A DNA stretch of 64,000 nt from Oceanipulchritudo coccoides (GTDB lineage: Bacteria; Verrucomicrobiota; Verrucomicrobiia; Opitutales; Oceanipulchritudinaceae), in the NCBI RefSeq assembly GCF_010500615.1, contig NZ_JAAGNX010000001.1, positions 1,255,531-1,319,530 of the forward strand. Direction: 5' to 3'. Positions 42,304-51,203 of the stretch are shown piece after piece. Made by a program: the position numbers and the translations under genes. The first letter of the stretch is position 1; each line of letters begins with the position of its first letter. Below the pieces are notes generated by a model, which saw only the letters and a program-made list of their open reading frames with translations, was not told where the DNA came from and did no database searches.

Positions 42304-42795
42304 TCAGGTAAAGATAATCTGTGAACCGGCGGACAGTTCGTAGAACTCACCGACCGTCAGGACCCTGTCCATTTGCGGGCAGAAGTCTTCCGGTTTGAGA
42401 TGGAACATGTCGACTGTTGCCTTGCAGGCAAAAATCTCGCCGCCGGCATCACTGATCATCTCGATGAACTCACCGACCGGGGGTATGTCGAGCTTGTCCA
42501 TTTCCTTCTTCATCATATGCGTGGCAAAGGCCGACATTCCGGGAATTGCCCCGAGGATGGTCGGCATTGGGAAGCCCATGGCATCCGGTACGCAAAGGGC
42601 GGGGTTGCCCACCGTGGCCACCTTCAACTTTTCCATCTTCTTCTTCACGATGGCGTGCAGACCGAAGAAGGTGAAAAAGAGGCTGGCCTCGATTCCTTCC
42701 ATGCGGGCCCCGTTGGCCATGATCAGTCCGGGATAGACCCCTTCGAGGGATCCCTTGGAGACGACGATTGAGACTTTTTTAATGGGTTCGCTCAT
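42304..42795 (-). CDS. DsrE/DsrF-like (DsrE2 type) sulfur-relay protein
   Basis: This 163-residue protein has KKVSIVVSKGSLEGVYPGLIMANGA, then FFTFFGLHAIVKKK and a conserved Cys in GGEIFACKATVDMF. That matches the DsrE2 branch of sulfurtransferase-like proteins, which carry sulfane sulfur on a Cys persulfide. A second Cys is in EDFCPQM and another in ALCVPD. It lies between TusE-like and FadL-type genes, 15 and 52 bases away. It probably accepts sulfur formed by sulfide oxidation. Confidence 0.85.
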   Translation of the reverse strand: MSEPIKKVSIVVSKGSLEGVYPGLIMANGARMEGIEASLFFTFFGLHAIVKKKMEKLKVATVGNPALCVPDAMGFPMPTILGAIPGMSAFATHMMKKEMDKLDIPPVGEFIEMISDAGGEIFACKATVDMFHLKPEDFCPQMDRVLTVGEFYELSAGSQIIFT

Positions 42796-42810
42796 TGTGG
42801 TATCCTCCTG

Positions 42811-43125
42811 TTAAACGCAACTGGCTGGTTTCGGGAATCCGGCGATACGCGCAGCTTTCTTGATCGGCCCGCCGGGGAAAAGACGGTACAGGTCCTTTGT
42901 CGGGATGCCGCCCACCTTGTTCAGTCGGCGCATGCCTGGAACAGCCTGCTTTTCCGCAAAATCTGACTCAATGAACTTGAGGACTTTCCAATGCTCATCG
43001 CTCAGCTCAATACCTTCTTCGGTTGCGAGGGCCGCAGCCACAGCCTCATTCCATTGCGTACGGTCGGTCAGGTAACCTTCCTCGTTCACTTCAACGCTGC
43101 TTCCAGCGAGTTCTTTCGTAGCCAT
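42811..43125 (-). CDS. TusE/DsrC family sulfur-relay protein
   Basis: This 104-residue protein ends in GFPKPASCV with the penultimate Cys that carries persulfide in DsrC and TusE. The earlier Cys found in sulfite-reductase DsrC (about 11 residues upstream) is absent: the segment reads PIKKAARIAGF. It is therefore TusE-like, a sulfur carrier, rather than the disulfide-forming substrate of dissimilatory sulfite reductase. It lies between the sulfide:quinone oxidoreductase and DsrE2 genes. Confidence 0.88.
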   Translation of the reverse strand: MATKELAGSSVEVNEEGYLTDRTQWNEAVAAALATEEGIELSDEHWKVLKFIESDFAEKQAVPGMRRLNKVGGIPTKDLYRLFPGGPIKKAARIAGFPKPASCV

Positions 43126-43168
43126 GATATTTCGTTTTTTTAGGGTTTAATTCGGTTTGGTTAAATGA

Positions 43169-44422
43169 TTATGCGGAGGCCTTTGCCTTGTTCGGGATTT
43201 TCTTCCCAAGATAGGACATCCGGTGATCGACAAAGGGGATGGGGTAGCCCTTGAGCAACATGTGCCAGTAGACATACTTGAAGGCCAGTTTACCCAGATG
43301 GTTCAGGCGAGTCTGGCTGAGCAGTCCAAACGGACCGACATGCGGGAAGGGGAAATGGCCAGGGACCGGTTCCTGCTCGTAATTAAAGTCGAGCAGGAAT
43401 CCTTTTCCAAACCCGGACTCAATGAAGCAATTGGCGTGTCCGTCAAAGCGTTCCTCCATCTCCTCGCCCTTCATGTAGGAGAGGATGTTTTCCGTCAGGA
43501 CTTCGGCCTCGAAGTGGGCCACTGAGCCTGCCTTGGATGTCGGCAGGTCGGTGGCGTCCCCAATGACAAAGATGTTTTCCTTCGCCTTGGCCTGCAGGGT
43601 GTCCCGGTTTGTCGGAATGAAATTCAGTTCGTCCCCCATGTTGGAACGTTCTATCAGCCTGTCCCCCATGTTGGTCGGTACGGATACCAGCAGGTCATAG
43701 GGAACTTCTCGCTCGTCCCAGGAGACAATCTTGTGGCCTTCGTTGTCCACCGATCCGATGGCGAAGTCCTGTTCCACAATGATGCCCTTTTCCTCGAGGA
43801 GGTGGTTCAGGATGGCCGAGGCAACCGGCTTTGTGAACGCCCCGGAGAGCGGAGTTGTGTAGACAATCTCTGTCTTTTCCCGGAGGCCTCGCTGTGTCAG
43901 GTACCAGTCGGCCAGAAAGGCAAATTCCAGTGGCGCGACCGGACATTTGATCGGCATTTCCGCAATGTTGATGACAAGGCGCCCGCCTTGCCAGTCCTTC
44001 ATCGCAGCCGTCAGTTTACGCGCTCCTTCAAATGTATAGAAATCATGACTACGCTTGCCCCAGTCCGATCCCGTTAGTCCATCAATTTCCTCTGGGGCGA
44101 TGCGGCATCCTGTCCCGACAATCAGGATGTCATAGCCGAGTTCCTCGCCTCCGGCCAGGATCACCTTGTTGTCTTCCGGGCAAATTTGCTCAATTCCCGA
44201 CTGGCGATACGTCGCCCGCGAGGGGAGAAATTTCTTCCGCGGCTTCTGCACGTCCTTTTCCGTGTAGACTCCGAAGGGCATGAAGAGGTAGCCCGGCTGG
44301 TAGTAATGCACCTCGCTCTGGTCGACAATCGTGATTTCCCAGTCCTTGCCTGCCTTCCGGCTCATTGTGTTGGCCATGATTGTGCCGGCAGTGCCCGCAC
44401 CCAGTATCAATAGTTTCTTCAT
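43169..44422 (-). CDS. sqr: Sulfide:quinone oxidoreductase
   Basis: This 417-residue FAD protein has the dinucleotide fold ILGAGTAGTIMAN and the second FAD motif IFVIGDATDLPTSKAGS. C160 (EMPIKCPVAPLEF) and C332 (HANCFIESGFGKG) sit where SQR places its redox cysteines. An aromatic C-terminal region (KYVYWHMLLKGYPIPFVDHR) fits membrane association and quinone contact. It oxidises sulfide to sulfane sulfur and feeds electrons to the quinone pool. It follows an ArsR regulator by 8 bases. SQR subtype is not assigned. Confidence 0.88.
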   Translation of the reverse strand: MKKLLILGAGTAGTIMANTMSRKAGKDWEITIVDQSEVHYYQPGYLFMPFGVYTEKDVQKPRKKFLPSRATYRQSGIEQICPEDNKVILAGGEELGYDILIVGTGCRIAPEEIDGLTGSDWGKRSHDFYTFEGARKLTAAMKDWQGGRLVINIAEMPIKCPVAPLEFAFLADWYLTQRGLREKTEIVYTTPLSGAFTKPVASAILNHLLEEKGIIVEQDFAIGSVDNEGHKIVSWDEREVPYDLLVSVPTNMGDRLIERSNMGDELNFIPTNRDTLQAKAKENIFVIGDATDLPTSKAGSVAHFEAEVLTENILSYMKGEEMEERFDGHANCFIESGFGKGFLLDFNYEQEPVPGHFPFPHVGPFGLLSQTRLNHLGKLAFKYVYWHMLLKGYPIPFVDHRMSYLGKKIPNKAKASA

Positions 44423-44430
44423 TTTTTTTC

Positions 44431-44754
44431 CTAAAGGTACTTTGCTTTGAAAAATTGGATCATTTCACGCACCCGGTCATCGGTCAGTCGATACACCATC
44501 CGCTTCGCGTCACGGTCGCATTCCACAATTCCCGCCAGACGCAGGATCTTCAGCTGCTGCGATAAATTCGATAGCTTCTCCGTTCCCAGTATCTCCGCCA
44601 TCTCCGATACGCAGAAGTCTCCACGGCTCAATATGCAGACGATCCGGAATCGTTGCTTGTTCGCGATTAACTGGAATATCCCGATGACGTGGCGGCAAAC
44701 CTCCTCGTTCCTCGCGAATTCCTCCCGTAGTTCCTGTCCAATTGAGTTTAACAT
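44431..44754 (-). CDS. ArsR family transcriptional regulator, probable sulfide-cluster repressor
   Basis: This 107-residue winged-helix protein has the recognition region SEMAEILGTEKLSNLSQQLKIL and wing VECDRDAKRMVYRL. Cysteines are at 20, 40, 48 and 79. C40 is placed much like the first reactive Cys of SqrR/BigR sulfide sensors, but the late second Cys of those proteins is not seen. It is first in the cluster with sqr and starts inside a TTTAACA inverted repeat, so it should control itself and the genes behind it. ATG 44754 is preferred to 44796. Confidence 0.85.
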   Translation of the reverse strand: MLNSIGQELREEFARNEEVCRHVIGIFQLIANKQRFRIVCILSRGDFCVSEMAEILGTEKLSNLSQQLKILRLAGIVECDRDAKRMVYRLTDDRVREMIQFFKAKYL

Positions 44755-44770
44755 CTGAATGATTGTTAAA
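44747..44770. promoter_or_regulatory. Perfect inverted repeat, probable ArsR operator
   Basis: TTTAACA (44747-44753) and TGTTAAA (44764-44770) are perfect 7-base arms around a 10-base AT-rich spacer. They overlap the ArsR start codon and lie in the divergent gap to the carboxylase operon. Site size and place suit a winged-helix dimer; binding is inferred. Confidence 0.6.
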
Positions 44771-44936
44771 TAATAAAACCAATGGCCGCGGATCAAGAAA
44801 ATTTATATTAGGAAAACATGGAATAAGAGTATCTTATGACCATAATGACGGATTTTTCTTGTTTCGAAGAAAAGATTGGCTTGTCAGGCGTATCACTTTT
44901 TTTGATAGATAATAAACCAACCTATTAATTTTGCTT

Positions 44937-46520
44937 ATGCCAGAACAAGACGGACCGGAAAAGGGAGATGAAGTGAACCGCGAGCGGACGGAGGCCTTAC
45001 GGGAACAAAAGGCGGCGATGCGGCTTGGCGGTGGTGAGGCGCGGCTAAAGGCGCAACAGGACCGGGGCAAGCTAAGCGTCTGGGAGCGGATTGAGTATTT
45101 ATTTGACGAAGGGACCTTTGTGGAAGTGGGGGGCTTTGTGGAGCTGCGGAGCGAGCACTTCGGGCTGGGCAAGAAAAAGGCGCCCGGGGACGGCGTAGTG
45201 ACCGGGTTTGGCCGGGTAAACGGGGAACTGGTCTACATGGCGGCGCAGGATTTCACGGTGTTGGGGGGCTCACTTGGGGAGATGCATGGCAAGAAAGTGG
45301 CGACGATCATGGACATGGCCATCCGCAACGGTGCGCCAATGATCACCCTGAATGACAGTGGCGGGGCGAGGATCCAGGAAGGGATTGGCTCCTTGTGCGG
45401 CTACGGCGAGATTTTCTATCGGAACACGCAGGCCAGCGGGGTGATCCCGCAGATCAGCGTGATCATGGGCCCCTGTGCGGGAGGGGCGGTTTACTCGCCC
45501 GGGATCACTGATTTTGTGGCGATGGTGAAAGGGACCTCCAACATGTTCATCACCGGGCCGGACGTGATCAAGACGGTGACCGGTGAGGAAGTGAGCAAGG
45601 AGGACCTTGGCGGACCGGAGATCCACATGGCCAAATCAGGTGTGGCAACGCACATCGGTGAGGATGACGAGTCGACGCTGAACTGGGTGGCGAAGTTACT
45701 CTCCTATATCCCGCCGAACAACCAGGAATCGGTACCGGTCGTGCCGCCGGTGGCCCGCACGACTGGCTTGCCCTTTTCCCTGCAGGATTTTGTCCCCTCA
45801 AACGCCAACAAGAGCTATGATATCCATGCGGTAATCGACGCGGTTGTTGATCCGCACAGTTTTCTGGAACTCCAGGAAGCCTACGCGTCCAATGTGGTGA
45901 TCGGGTTCAGCCGTATCGACGGAATCAGTACAGGAATTATTGCCAACAACCCGAAGCACCTGGCTGGTTGCCTTGACGTCAATGCCAGTGACAAGGCGGC
46001 ACGATTTGTGCGATTTTGTGACGCATTCAATATTCCCTTGCTCACGCTGGTGGATGTGCCGGGCTTTTTACCCGGCGTGGACCAGGAGTACTCTGGCATC
46101 ATTCGTCACGGGGCCAAGTTGCTCTATGCGTACAGCGAGGCGACCGTTCCGAAATTAACGGTTGTCCTGCGGAAAGCGTATGGAGGGGCCTACATCTGCA
46201 TGTGTTCGAAGCACCTTGGCGCGGATATGGTAGTGGCCTGGCCTGGCGCGGAAATCGCGGTCATGGGACCAAAGGGAGCAGTCAATGTGATCTTCCGGAA
46301 GGAGATTGCGGCCAGCGATGACCAGGAACAGGCGGCGAAAGATAAGGAGAACGAATACATTGAGACCTTTGCCAATCCGCGGATGGCGGCGTCCCTCGGG
46401 TATGTGGACGACGTTATTGAGCCGGACCAGACAGGCCACTTTGTACGTCAGTACTTATGGTCACTGAGCGATAAGCATGTTGAGCGGCCAATCCGTAAAC
46501 ACGGTAACATCCCGCTTTAA
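44937..46520 (+). CDS. Acyl-CoA carboxylase carboxyltransferase subunit
   Basis: This 527-residue crotonase-fold protein of the PccB/MmdA family has DSGGARIQEGIGSLCGYGEIF and IMGPCAGGAVYSPGITDF in its N-lobe and VDVPGFLPGVDQEYSGIIRHGAKLL with AYGGAYICM and AWPGAEIAVMGPKGAV in its C-lobe. It transfers carboxylate between biotin and an acyl-CoA such as propionyl-CoA, or runs in the decarboxylase direction. The active-site loops look intact. ATG 44937 is preferred to the TTG at 44931. It begins a three-gene operon with a biotin-carboxylase-like and a biotin-carrier gene. Confidence 0.9.
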   Translation: MPEQDGPEKGDEVNRERTEALREQKAAMRLGGGEARLKAQQDRGKLSVWERIEYLFDEGTFVEVGGFVELRSEHFGLGKKKAPGDGVVTGFGRVNGELVYMAAQDFTVLGGSLGEMHGKKVATIMDMAIRNGAPMITLNDSGGARIQEGIGSLCGYGEIFYRNTQASGVIPQISVIMGPCAGGAVYSPGITDFVAMVKGTSNMFITGPDVIKTVTGEEVSKEDLGGPEIHMAKSGVATHIGEDDESTLNWVAKLLSYIPPNNQESVPVVPPVARTTGLPFSLQDFVPSNANKSYDIHAVIDAVVDPHSFLELQEAYASNVVIGFSRIDGISTGIIANNPKHLAGCLDVNASDKAARFVRFCDAFNIPLLTLVDVPGFLPGVDQEYSGIIRHGAKLLYAYSEATVPKLTVVLRKAYGGAYICMCSKHLGADMVVAWPGAEIAVMGPKGAVNVIFRKEIAASDDQEQAAKDKENEYIETFANPRMAASLGYVDDVIEPDQTGHFVRQYLWSLSDKHVERPIRKHGNIPL

Positions 46521-46555: not shown

Positions 46556-48088
46556 ATGTTCAAACGAGTGTTGATAGCCAACCGCGGACTGATCCAGGCC
46601 AACTGCGTGAGGGCGGTTAAGGAACTGGGGGCGACCGCCATCACGATATTTGATGATGAGGACCGGGACAGTGCGGGGGTTCGGAATGCGGATGAAGCAT
46701 ACCGCCTTGTGCTGCATGATCCACGCTTGCGCCCATATTTGGATCTTGAGCAAATCGTGGCGCTCGCGGAAAAACTCAAAGTCGATGCGGTGCATCCCGG
46801 ATATGGTTTTCTTGCCCAAAACGCCAAATTCGCGCGTGAGCTGGAGAAGCGGGGCATATCAATCATTGCCCCGAGTGCGGGCGGCATGTTGAACCTTTCA
46901 GACAAGTCACGCGTAAAGGAAGCAGCCCGAAGTGCCGGATTACCGGTCTTGAAAGGCTCGGAAGCCTGCAGCGAAAGTACCCGACTACTCGAATTTGCGG
47001 AGCGCCTTGAGTTTCCCCTCCTGATGAAAGCGGTTCATGGGTTTGGCGGGATCGGAATGCGGGTCGTCAAGGATGCCAGTCGCCTTGAAAGTGCCTTCGA
47101 GGGGATCCAGACAATCAGTGGAAAGTTTCTCATGAATTCCCCCGAGGTTTTTCTTGAGGAGTATCTTCCCAATGCCCGGCATATTGAGTTTCCCGTTTTG
47201 CGAGACAAGAGCGGCCGGACAACGGTTTTTCCAGAGATGGAGTGTTCGCTGCAGAGGCGTTTCCAAAAGCTGCTGGCGGAAACACCTGCACCGGATTTCG
47301 ATCCGGACATGCGGTCGCGCTTGCAATCGGAGATCCGCGTCCTGTGTGAGCGCTTGGACGTCTTCGGCTTTGCCTCGGTGGAATTCCTTGTCCATGAGGG
47401 CAAGCCGTACTTTATCGAGATTAACGGATATATCCAACCATCCCATACGGCGACCACGCTGCTGACTGGCGTAGACATGCTGAAGGAGCAGATCCGGTTG
47501 CTTTCGGGTGAGCCCCTGAAAGTGCGGAGCGAGGATCATAAACCTGACCGGCATGTCATCGGAGCCTACATCTTCGCCGAGGATCCGGAAAACAACTTCG
47601 AGCCGTCCCCAGGCCAGGTGGACCGGCTTTACCTTCCCTTCGGGGAGGAAGTTTTCATGCAGACCTCCATATTCAGCGGGGCAAAAATCTCACCCTTTTA
47701 TGATCCGATGGTAGCGAAATTGCTGGTACGCGGACTTAGCCGTGAGGATGCCATCCTGAAAATGAGCATTGCCCTTGAAGAGTTTTTCGTGGAGGGCGTG
47801 AAGACGAACATTCCGCTTATGAGGGGAATTCTTAAATCGGATGCCTTCCAGTCGAGTTCCCTGACCCCGGACTTTATCAATCGCCCGGAGGACCGCGTCC
47901 GGCTGGTCGAAAGCCTCAAGTCGGAGAGCGATTGTGAAATTGCCGCCCTTGTTGCCGCCCTTGCCCTGCACCGCGATGGCGACACCATCAAACGGATGGA
48001 GGCACTCGTTGCCGAACGGGGCAAGGATTCCGTTCTCGGGGCAGCTACCCGGTGGCTTCGCCCACGCAAACCAAGGAGACCACTATGA
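46556..48088 (+). CDS. Biotin-carboxylase-like ATP-grasp protein with altered active site
   Basis: This 510-residue protein aligns over its whole length with AccC and keeps almost the same residue numbers. ATP and metal residues are kept: K117, K158, H209, E276, E288, N290 and K238. The residues that bind bicarbonate and biotin are changed. R292 is Y and E296 is S (FIEINGYIQPSH instead of NTRIQVEH), V295 is P, and R338 is Y (VIGAYIFAEDP instead of VECRINAEDP). H236 is F. It overlaps the biotin-carrier gene by 4 bases. It may be inactive, or may carboxylate by another route or use another substrate. Confidence 0.85.
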   Translation: MFKRVLIANRGLIQANCVRAVKELGATAITIFDDEDRDSAGVRNADEAYRLVLHDPRLRPYLDLEQIVALAEKLKVDAVHPGYGFLAQNAKFARELEKRGISIIAPSAGGMLNLSDKSRVKEAARSAGLPVLKGSEACSESTRLLEFAERLEFPLLMKAVHGFGGIGMRVVKDASRLESAFEGIQTISGKFLMNSPEVFLEEYLPNARHIEFPVLRDKSGRTTVFPEMECSLQRRFQKLLAETPAPDFDPDMRSRLQSEIRVLCERLDVFGFASVEFLVHEGKPYFIEINGYIQPSHTATTLLTGVDMLKEQIRLLSGEPLKVRSEDHKPDRHVIGAYIFAEDPENNFEPSPGQVDRLYLPFGEEVFMQTSIFSGAKISPFYDPMVAKLLVRGLSREDAILKMSIALEEFFVEGVKTNIPLMRGILKSDAFQSSSLTPDFINRPEDRVRLVESLKSESDCEIAALVAALALHRDGDTIKRMEALVAERGKDSVLGAATRWLRPRKPRRPL

Positions 48089-48597
48089 ATTACAATGTCC
48101 ATTCTCCCAAGAAGCACTCGGTCACGATTGATCGTAAGGCCGACCTGAACGGCCTTTTCGAGGTCGCGGTGGATAAAGGCAGTTATTCGGTGGAAATCCG
48201 AAAGGTCCAGGACGACGGAAGTCTCAAGACTCTTATGATCGACCATAAAGTCTGTCCGGTGGAAGTGGAACGTCGGGGTGACGGCCTGCCGGTGCGGGTC
48301 TTTCTCAAGGGTGTGCCTTTTGACGTGGATATCTCGAAGATGGCTTCGACACGCTTTCGTCCGGAATTACCTGACCGTGAAATCAGCGGCGAAGTGCGTG
48401 CCAATTTGCCCGGACAAATTGTGGCCCTTTTTGTCAAGACGGGCGAAGCAATCACCACCGGGCAATCGCTGGGGATCCTTGACGCCATGAAAATGGAAAA
48501 TGAGCTTTTGGCGCCCAAGGACGGCACGGTTAGATCTATTTCGGCACAGCCCGGACAGATCCTCGCCAAGGGGGATTTGATTCTGGAAATTGAGTAA
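48085..48597 (+). CDS. Biotin carboxyl carrier protein (biotinyl domain)
   Basis: This 170-residue protein has an extended N-terminal beta region (1-100) and a C-terminal biotinyl domain with the target lysine K136 in LDAMKMENELLAPKDGTV. It starts at ATGA within the stop of the preceding gene, behind an AAGGAG site. It has about twice the length of a lone biotinyl domain, like the tail of propionyl-CoA carboxylase alpha chains, so it may be a split-off piece of such a chain. It should shuttle carboxylate to the carboxyltransferase at 44937. Confidence 0.92.
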   Translation: MNYNVHSPKKHSVTIDRKADLNGLFEVAVDKGSYSVEIRKVQDDGSLKTLMIDHKVCPVEVERRGDGLPVRVFLKGVPFDVDISKMASTRFRPELPDREISGEVRANLPGQIVALFVKTGEAITTGQSLGILDAMKMENELLAPKDGTVRSISAQPGQILAKGDLILEIE

Positions 48598-48904: not shown

Positions 48905-48983
48905 CCGGGGCACCGGCAGGTATGCACCGTGATCGGCGAGGAATTTGCTTTATCCGTTAAGCGTTTTGAATACGGTGGGCCCC

Positions 48984-51203
48984 ATGGCAGAGGGAGATCC
49001 CACCACAGAGAGCAAAAAGTTCGGTACGTTTCTCGGTGTCTTTACGCCCAGCGTATTGACGATCCTCGGCGTCATGATGTACCTGCGCTTTGGCTGGGTG
49101 CTGGGAAATGCCGGACTACTGCACACTTTGCTGATCCTCTGCATGGCCTCAGGGATCACCTTTATTACCGGATTAAGCGCTTCGGCGATCGCCACCAACA
49201 TCCGGGTCGGGGTAGGGGGCGAATACTACATGGTTTCGCGAAGCCTTGGCTTGGAGCTCGGGGGCGCGATTGGGATTCCGTTGTTTCTTTGCCGGACGTT
49301 AAGCCTCACCCTTTACGCATTCGGATTGGCCGAATCCCTTGCCTTTGTCTGGCCGGCCGAGTGGGGGGAGCCCCCGGTTCAAGTCATGACTGGCGTGATC
49401 ATCCTGTTCATCACCGCGGTGGCCGGGAAAAGCGCCAGCCTGACCTTGAAGCTACAGATCCCGATCATGATTGCCGTGGGACTGAGCATCCTTGCCCTTG
49501 TTGCCGGTGTCATGACCGGACCGCTACACATGCCTTCACTTGAGCCGAGTTATGAACGTTCTGCCCCAAGTGGATTCTGGTTAGTCTTTGCCGTATTTTT
49601 CCCTGCTGTGACGGGATTTACGGCCGGAATTGGCATGTCCGGCGATCTCAAGCATCCAAGAAAGTCCATCCCCATCGGAACGATTCTTGCCGTAGTGACA
49701 GGTTTTGTCACCTATGCCGTGATTCTGACATTGCTTTCAGTCACTGGTAAAGTCAGTGGCCAGCAGCTGGCAACCCTTGATCCCAATGCCCCTCCCATTT
49801 GGGCCAATATCGCAATTCTTGGGGTCTGGCTGATCCTTCCGGGCATGTGGGGGGCCATTCTTTCCAGTGCCTTTGGTAGTGCTCTTGGCGGTCCCCGCGT
49901 TTTGCAAGCGCTGGCTACGGATGGCCTCGTGCCGGGTATCCTTGCCAAGCTCAGCAAATCCGGACAACCCACCGTGGCCACCTGGGTCACTGGGGGCATT
50001 GCCTTGTTGGCGGTCTTGCTGGGTGACCTGAACGCCGTGGGACGGTTGGTAACAGTCTTCTTTCTGACCCTTTACGTGACAATCAATCTTTCCGCGGCAC
50101 TTGAGAAACTGGCCCGCGAGCCATCCTACCGGCCACGGTTCAATCTGCCCGCATGGGTGTCCCTCTTCGGCTGCTTTGCGGCCACCGCGGTCATGTTCCT
50201 CATCAATCCGCTTTTCTGTCTGGCGGCCATTTTTCTCGAATTCCTTCTCCTGTTCTATCTTCGCCGGAAATCCCTTGAGCGCCGCTGGGGAGATGTCTGG
50301 GCCGGTGTCTGGAACGGACTGGCCCGGTTTGCCCTCTTGCGCTTGCGGAATACCGAGTCGCTGGCCCGCAACTGGCGCCCGCACATCCTCTTGTTCACAG
50401 CTAATCCAGATCACCGCCGAAGCCTCGTTCGGTTGGCTAGCGGCTTCAACCAGGAGCGGGGAATTGTTACGGTCTGCCGGGCTGTTGTCGGTGATCTTGA
50501 CCAGGACTTTCGTAAGATCCCCGCCATGCAACAGGAAATGGAAGAGGCTATCGACAAGGAAGGCCTCGCCGCCTTCTGTGAAGTCAATATCGTCCGCAAT
50601 TTCGAGGAGGGTGTGATCAATATCACCCAGGCAAATGGTTACGCTGGTCTGCAATCCAACACGATCATGTTTGGCTGGCCGGATGATGCGGAGGGCATGG
50701 CGCGCCTGCTAAGGATCTGTTCAACCGCTTCCCGCCTCAACATCAGCTGCCTACTGGCCAAGCTGGAAGACACCCCCACGATCCGGCAGAAACGCCTCCT
50801 CGATGTGTGGTGGCGCGGCAAGCAATACAACGGCGACATGATGCTTCTCCTTGGCCATCTCCTCACTTTAAATACCGATTGGAAGGACGGCAAAATCCGC
50901 TTGCGGACAATTGTGGCCAACAAGCGGGGCGAGAAAGAGGCTGTCACATACGCCCTGAACGAACTTATCCAGGAGGCCCGGATTCCCGCGGATATCGAAG
51001 TCTTCACAATGGATCAATCCACGCATTTGTTCGACCTCATGCAGTCCCATAGCCGCAACGCGGATCTCGTCTTTATGGGACTAAAAATACCCGAGGATAT
51101 TGAATTGTTCGAATATGCGGATACGCTCTTCAAACTCGGTAATAGATTTTCGAACATTGTCTTTGTCCGCAATGCCGGAAAATTTGCCGGTGAACTGATT
51201 TAA
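48984..51203 (+). CDS. SLC12-like cation-chloride cotransporter homologue (APC superfamily)
   Basis: This 739-residue protein has about twelve membrane segments (20-450), with FGTFLGVFTPSVLTILGVMMYLR and GGEYYMVSRSLGLELGGAIG typical of NKCC/KCC-like members. SLC12 family region FPAVTGFTAGIGMSGDLKHP is present. A large cytosolic tail (about 470-739) resembles the SLC12 C-terminal domain, with GLQSNTIMFGWPDD, WWRGKQYNGDMMLLLGHLL and WKDGKIRLRTI. It may move Cl- or amino acids with Na+ or K+. ATG 48984 is chosen over the TTG at 48945. Confidence 0.85.
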   Translation: MAEGDPTTESKKFGTFLGVFTPSVLTILGVMMYLRFGWVLGNAGLLHTLLILCMASGITFITGLSASAIATNIRVGVGGEYYMVSRSLGLELGGAIGIPLFLCRTLSLTLYAFGLAESLAFVWPAEWGEPPVQVMTGVIILFITAVAGKSASLTLKLQIPIMIAVGLSILALVAGVMTGPLHMPSLEPSYERSAPSGFWLVFAVFFPAVTGFTAGIGMSGDLKHPRKSIPIGTILAVVTGFVTYAVILTLLSVTGKVSGQQLATLDPNAPPIWANIAILGVWLILPGMWGAILSSAFGSALGGPRVLQALATDGLVPGILAKLSKSGQPTVATWVTGGIALLAVLLGDLNAVGRLVTVFFLTLYVTINLSAALEKLAREPSYRPRFNLPAWVSLFGCFAATAVMFLINPLFCLAAIFLEFLLLFYLRRKSLERRWGDVWAGVWNGLARFALLRLRNTESLARNWRPHILLFTANPDHRRSLVRLASGFNQERGIVTVCRAVVGDLDQDFRKIPAMQQEMEEAIDKEGLAAFCEVNIVRNFEEGVINITQANGYAGLQSNTIMFGWPDDAEGMARLLRICSTASRLNISCLLAKLEDTPTIRQKRLLDVWWRGKQYNGDMMLLLGHLLTLNTDWKDGKIRLRTIVANKRGEKEAVTYALNELIQEARIPADIEVFTMDQSTHLFDLMQSHSRNADLVFMGLKIPEDIELFEYADTLFKLGNRFSNIVFVRNAGKFAGELI

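Follow-up and report, generated by a model that had tools for sequence, protein, structure and literature searches.

The methylmalonyl-CoA carboxyltransferase of Propionibacterium is a transcarboxylase composed of 12S, 5S and 1.3S subunits. The biotin carboxylase (BC) domain is described in a passage of PMC3199775 as limited to carboxylases, unlike the biotin-dependent decarboxylases and transcarboxylases. The active site is outlined in parts of PMC11077971, where residue numbers are one lower than those used here: E296 is the base that takes the proton of bicarbonate, R338 and D382 hold biotin, Mg-ADP is held by E276, E288, E201 and Q233, and strict conservation is stated for both E296 and R338. 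Here we analyze a BC homologue with a remodelled bicarbonate/biotin site, below called the altered BC, which is encoded in a stretch of 64,000 nucleotides from Oceanipulchritudo coccoides (the window). It is not a BC with the defining catalytic residues. Among the matches listed from the open-licence literature, none described an operon of this kind with a catalytically disabled BC.

Results

Gene order and neighbourhood

The altered BC gene is located between the genes of a carboxyltransferase (CT) and a biotin carrier (Table 1). It starts 36 bases past the last base of the CT stop codon (35 intervening bases), and at its other end the stop codon and the carrier ATG overlap as ATGA; an alternative CT start is the ATG at 44937. 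The first-pass annotation had described both neighbours as intact and as overlapping or abutting the altered BC gene, in agreement with the Carboxyl_trans match of 630 bits, the AMKM motif and the ATGA overlap. The N-terminal part of the carrier putatively resembles a BC-CT linking domain. The order CT, altered BC, carrier is the same in all 11 genomes where it can be read (the window, G001-G003, G010, G019, and G055-G059), the carrier of G019 having been found by tblastn at L049 1569-1057. A contig end cuts one gene of the triad in three genomes, namely the CT in L055 and L060 and the carrier in L057.

Table 1. Features of the triad, of the altered BC and of the divergent regulator gene
Feature	Position	Strand	Description
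ArsR-family regulator	44431..44796	-	divergent from CT; HTH_5 match
CT, PccB/MmdA/12S type	44931..46520	+	529 aa from TTG 44931; Carboxyl_trans 629.8 bits
Altered BC (biotin carboxylase homologue, remodelled bicarbonate/biotin site)	46556..48088	+	510 aa, ATG start, one open frame
Altered glycine-rich loop, residues 161-168 HGFGGIGM	47036..47059	+	position calculated from start 46556
Codons Y292-I-Q-P295-S296, in place of R292, V295 and catalytic base E296	47429..47443	+	position calculated
Codon Y338, in place of biotin-binding R338	47567..47569	+	position calculated
C-terminal helical extension, residues 444-510	47885..48085	+	contains stretch EIAALVAALALHRD
Biotin carrier	48085..48597	+	170 aa; biotinyl domain with AMKM motif

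No common pathway neighbours were seen by eye around the triad in the ORF lists, in which neighbours carry no family annotation, and no substrate is indicated by them. In the window, genes for DsrE_2, DsrC-like and Pyr_redox_2 proteins and the ArsR-type regulator adjoin the triad on the minus strand (42304-44796); by eye, the Pyr_redox_2 protein looks like a sulfide:quinone oxidoreductase. A similar ArsR-type ORF, again identified by eye, precedes the CT in G002. The regulator is loosely associated with the triad and could instead be part of the sulfur gene group. Immediately after the triad comes a gene for a transporter of the SLC12/amino-acid-permease type (48945-51203, plus strand).

Domains and predicted fold of the altered BC

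The Biotin_carb_N, CPSase_L_D2 and Biotin_carb_C domains of Pfam all match the altered BC above their cut-offs, and the protein is 34-39% identical to the BC rows aligned with it. Its predicted fold is that of a complete BC (pLDDT 86.7; Z 51.4 to 7kct, 2.0 A over 447 residues), and a BC fold was also predicted for L064, a relative from Candidatus Fibrimonadales (pLDDT 84.1); the alignments behind both models consisted of BC relatives, and the fold matches are silent on function. The stretch EIAALVAALALHRD (window form) in the C-terminal extension is conserved across the clade. By analogy with the architecture of propionyl-CoA carboxylase, this extension would contact the CT or the carrier.

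Residues lost and residues kept

Residues were read from an alignment to solved BCs, including that of E. coli, and to 80 related loci, the best 80 of 184 relatives from a genome scan that used two short peptide patterns, so that more distant members of the altered group may have been missed. The match to E. coli AccC, initially taken to be gap-free, is interrupted by small gaps, ahead of residue 200 and around 345. The altered BC of the window carries the substitutions R292Y, V295P, E296S, R338Y and H236F. The first four of these positions do not vary among the other BC loci (70 of 70; L065-L134, from the same best 80), and this part of the substitution list given by the first-pass annotation stands. 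H236 is its weak point, being H in 52 of the 70, Y in 9, N in 5, R in 3 and L in 1. The residues K116 (window K117), K159 (window K158), E201, H209, E211 and Q233 are retained, as are K238, E276, E288, N290 and Q294. The alignments to solved BCs and to the 80 loci thus bear out the original observation that ATP residues are kept and bicarbonate/biotin residues are lost.

The earlier list was also incomplete, since E12 is changed to L, R16 to N, E87 to Q (window Q88) and Q213 to P, and the glycine loop GGGGGRGM reads HGFGGIGM, with the basic residue K/R167 replaced by I. Altogether, the altered BC lacks five positively charged residues of ordinary BCs: R16, K/R167, R292, R338 and R367. Eight ATP/Mg residues (K116, K159, E201, H209, Q233, E276, E288 and N290) are present in each of the ten altered BCs, and so are Y82, G83, D382 (position 383 in the altered BC), K238, Q294 and H297; the catalytic base E296, the bicarbonate residue R292 and the biotin residue R338 occur in none of the ten and not in L064, versus 70 of 70 other BC loci.

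Residue counts were made over all 70 other loci and site statistics over 19 of them, in which 82 positions are invariant. Of these, 46 are kept in all ten altered BCs, 19 are mixed, and 10 never show the normal residue; each of the remaining seven has one single new residue (E12L, R16N, E88Q, Q213P, R292Y, V295P, and E296S, where E88 is the window number of E. coli E87). All 13 ATP-side positions, a list that includes K238 and Q294, which are also near bicarbonate, fall among the kept ones (hypergeometric 0.0002, or 0.0005 if 12 are counted), and none of the four bicarbonate/biotin positions does (0.03); these p-values are only indicative, since the two lists were drawn up after the alignment had been seen, with each position placed by its presumed role.

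Distribution and conservation

The gene set occurs in certain marine and anaerobic bacteria, and beyond the window the altered site recurs at nine further loci. Eight of them (L055-L061 and L063) belong to Opitutales-type Verrucomicrobiota, among these Pelagicoccus mobilis; the ninth, L062, is from a gammaproteobacterium, Pseudomaricurvus alcaniphilus, which the altered BC probably reached by transfer. The proteins of these nine loci are 45-73% identical to that of the window, L059 and L060 being near-copies. Y292, P295, S296, N16, L12, Q88 and P213 are found in 10/10 proteins, and position 338 is always aromatic (Y in four, F in six); G019, outside these ten, shows the same substitution set. 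A sequencing error or an oddity of one genome, which would have undone the original proposal, is ruled out by these shared residues. The set of Y292, P295, S296 and an aromatic residue 338 is conserved in a clade whose genes are flanked by CT and carrier genes in every readable genome (11 of 11). Since the substitutions are fixed in 10/10 altered BCs and absent from 70/70 other BC loci, selection appears to act on the altered state, and at the sequence level the change reads as a fixed set of uncharged replacements under selection, with the nucleotide site left in place.

L064 is 38% identical to the altered BC and has L12, Q14, P213 and F236 as the ten do. It differs elsewhere, with N292, H295, F296 and N338, the loss of H209, E211 and N290, and the changes E288D, H297Y and D382E. 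In its genome (G060), neither a CT nor a carrier gene adjoins the altered BC gene, and a CT encoded elsewhere is 69% identical to that of the window. G134, a second genome of the same phylum, has the CT and no BC at E 1e-40, which reflects either a gap or a CT working without the altered BC. In this phylum, Fibrobacterota, 57 of 80 sampled genomes of unstated completeness have no BC match at E 1e-40.

At E 1e-200, seven of the 273 genomes from the order have the CT, and all seven carry the altered BC (G160 and G173 were equated with G059 and G055 from their identical coordinates); G001 has the altered BC yet is outside these seven because a contig end cuts its CT. In five of 55 relatives (G011, G032, G038, G051 and G053, listed as 94-98% complete), the BC search gave nothing stronger than E 6e-10, the level at which carbamoyl-phosphate synthase matches, and in G033 (50% complete) it gave no match at all.

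Phylogeny and rates

In a BC tree of 47 rows (34 of the 70 other BCs, two AccC and 11 altered BCs, counting L064), the ten altered BCs and L064 form one clade with support 100/100 and a stem of length 0.92; the branch to L064 is long, and bootstrap values had not quite converged. The CTs of the altered sets likewise form one clade (100/100), with subgroups matching the BC tree, in a tree of selected CT loci that excludes L186, L199, L201 and L205, the CTs cut in L055 and L060, and that of G019. In six pairs, pN/pS is 0.24-0.37 for the altered BC, 0.13-0.20 for the CT and 0.26-0.38 for the carrier, with synonymous sites near saturation. Identity between altered BCs is lower than between their CTs, by 21 points on average (28 pairs) vs 11 in other sets (55 pairs), in a comparison of eight altered and 11 other sets where control pairs are mostly more distant or near-copies. 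This suggests looser constraint on the altered BC than on a catalytic BC; the carrier evolves just as fast, so fast evolution is not special to the altered BC.

Other biotin systems and the carboxyltransferase

The O. coccoides genome has one normal AccC, whose acetyl-CoA carboxylase (ACC) carrier is a separate protein encoded beside it, an OadA-like gene, and a separate locus (L051) with a second CT, a biotin carrier and OadB, where methylmalonyl-CoA mutase and epimerase genes were also noted by eye; hence the triad is not its only biotin system. No Biotin_lipoyl match was obtained for the OadA-like protein at L050 8090-9760. Further BC matches besides the altered BC are present in G019 and G055-G059. 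No AccC was detected in G010 (80% complete), where the altered BC is the only BC and a second match of the BC search (37 bits) is probably carbamoyl-phosphate synthase, and this genome also lacks matches for a second CT, OadA and OadB; no AccC was found in G060 either. Each single absence in G010 may be a gap, given its completeness, and those in G060 may be gaps too.

The PYC_OADA (5S-type) family has an unlinked match in the O. coccoides genome and matches in 11 of the 13 genomes searched, the exceptions being G010 and G060; in two of the 13 (G011 and G134) no altered BC was found. OAD_beta was not seen beside the triad in the ORF lists, and this family occurs elsewhere in 11 of 14 genomes, the exceptions being G010, G055 and G060. 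Coupling to OadA/OadB as a general rule is disfavoured, as neither was found in G010 and G060, both possibly incomplete.

The best solved relative of the window CT is 1vrg, from Thermotoga maritima, and the acceptor-site segment of the window CT is also nearest to 1vrg, followed by the 12S transcarboxylase subunit 1on3. The control genome of T. maritima has a PF02436 match and is absent from the controls matching the BC family. A passage of PMC7835884 gives D422 for S. coelicolor PccB and I420 for the promiscuous AccB-type. By a correspondence read from the motif, the window CT appears to have Ile at the position of D422; the propionyl-CoA carboxylase entry 8pn8 also has Ile there, so this residue alone decides nothing.

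Discussion

We see about an even chance that the altered BC is a pseudoenzyme with a structural and possibly an ATP-sensing role in a BC-free biotin carboxyl-transfer enzyme. It would be unable to charge biotin from bicarbonate and would dock the carrier onto the CT, a nucleotide-locked conformation possibly acting as a regulator or ATP sensor, while the CT and the carrier would move carboxyl groups without the BC half-reaction. Since the altered BC is conserved, the enzyme probably moves carboxyl groups without CO2 fixation. The most economical reaction would be acyl-CoA:acyl-CoA transcarboxylation at a single CT site, for example methylmalonyl-CoA + acetyl-CoA -> propionyl-CoA + malonyl-CoA, where the substrates are a guess; alternatively, acyl-CoA could be decarboxylated where a Na+-pump beta subunit is present. 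If the gene absences in G010 are real, the triad must work alone there, by acyl-CoA transfer, slow decarboxylation or an unknown activity of the altered BC; these absences favour a self-contained acyl-CoA:acyl-CoA transcarboxylase (or decarboxylase). The more specific idea that the altered BC keeps a nucleotide-bound switch or chaperone role for such a transcarboxylase seems doubtful, if possible. Counter to the pseudoenzyme reading with carboxyl transfer, the ATP residues, unneeded by a pure scaffold, are present in 10/10 altered BCs, G134 has the CT and no detected BC, and the normal AccC of most members might load the carrier of the triad.

The last point leads to a possibility raised by the first-pass annotation, that the altered BC has a structural role and the carrier is charged in trans by the housekeeping AccC, so that the triad as a whole would be an ordinary acyl-CoA carboxylase that uses the BC of another system. 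It suits most members, O. coccoides with its normal AccC included, and the further BC matches in G019 and G055-G059, but no AccC was found in G010 and G060, both possibly incomplete, and both the 57 of 80 genomes of the G060 phylum without a BC at E 1e-40 and the separate ACC carrier beside the AccC of O. coccoides weigh against it; we regard it as distinctly unlikely. The same annotation had suggested a changed ATP-dependent reaction. In one such reading, the altered BC would activate another substrate in the remodelled pocket. Retention of the ATP/Mg residues together with a new residue set fixed in 10/10 does resemble a new function rather than decay, and yet the loss of R16, K/R167, R292, R338 and R367, along with that of ATP residues in L064, makes this reading unlikely, though still possible: with the cations gone and H209, E211 and N290 missing from L064, ATP chemistry is probably not required for the function that the clade as a whole shares.

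It is very unlikely that the altered BC still carboxylates biotin by a changed mechanism, for instance with another base. The retention of Y82, G83, D382, K238, Q294 and H297 in 10/10 proteins leaves some of the biotin and bicarbonate site in place; however, E296, R292 and R338 are invariant in 70/70 other BC loci, the account in parts of PMC11077971 calls E296 and R338 strictly conserved, and L064 has even H297Y and D382E. That the gene is decaying and functionless is highly improbable. The long stem branch (0.92), the heavier loss in L064 and G134 with its CT and no detected BC could be read in this way, but low pN/pS contradicts it, as do open frames with shared substitutions and a shared gene arrangement in 11 genomes from two phyla. 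The initial judgement of selective loss rather than random decay is upheld by substitutions that are conserved in one clade and set with a CT and a carrier.

A clade of altered BCs without the residues of BC chemistry strains the rule that a BC domain marks carboxylases, and its members are likely to be misannotated as acetyl-CoA carboxylase. They would be natural pseudoenzymes for asking about the non-catalytic roles of the BC subunit, and bear on the source of malonyl-CoA in bacteria without acetyl-CoA carboxylase. If the doubtful reading of a nucleotide-bound switch or chaperone for a self-contained transcarboxylase is true, hosts that lack the genes of acetyl-CoA carboxylase, apparently including G010, could make malonyl-CoA from methylmalonyl-CoA, and this supply would need no ATP and bicarbonate. 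As two hosts are named strains (Pelagicoccus mobilis KCTC 13126 and Pseudomaricurvus alcaniphilus MEBiC06469), these proposals should be testable.

Comparison with known systems

The altered BC is like AccC/PccA (E. coli AccC, 3g8c, 1bnc) in its fold, domains and ATP/Mg residues, whereas R292, V295, E296, R338, E12, R16, E87 and Q213 of those proteins are replaced by a fixed set. Operons of three-subunit acyl-CoA/propionyl-CoA carboxylases in Anaerolineales (L099) and Bdellovibrionota (L109) have the CT upstream and the carrier downstream of the BC, as the triad does, but their BCs keep R292, E296 and R338, and their CTs are just 56-58% identical to that of the window. An ordinary propionyl-CoA carboxylase was rejected for the triad on its active-site residues: the gene set is linked as in a three-subunit acyl-CoA carboxylase, but its BC is without the catalytic residues. 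In comparison with the Na+-pumping methylmalonyl-CoA decarboxylase MmdABCD, the triad operon is without a beta or delta subunit, and shares an MmdA-like CT (TIGR01117, below its cut-off) and a carrier. From the 12S/5S/1.3S transcarboxylase, it differs in having a BC homologue, and no linked 5S subunit was seen; the two are alike in combining a 12S-like CT with a biotin carrier, and an active BC is presumably missing from the triad as well. The triad would work like a transcarboxylase or decarboxylase that carries a retained BC scaffold.
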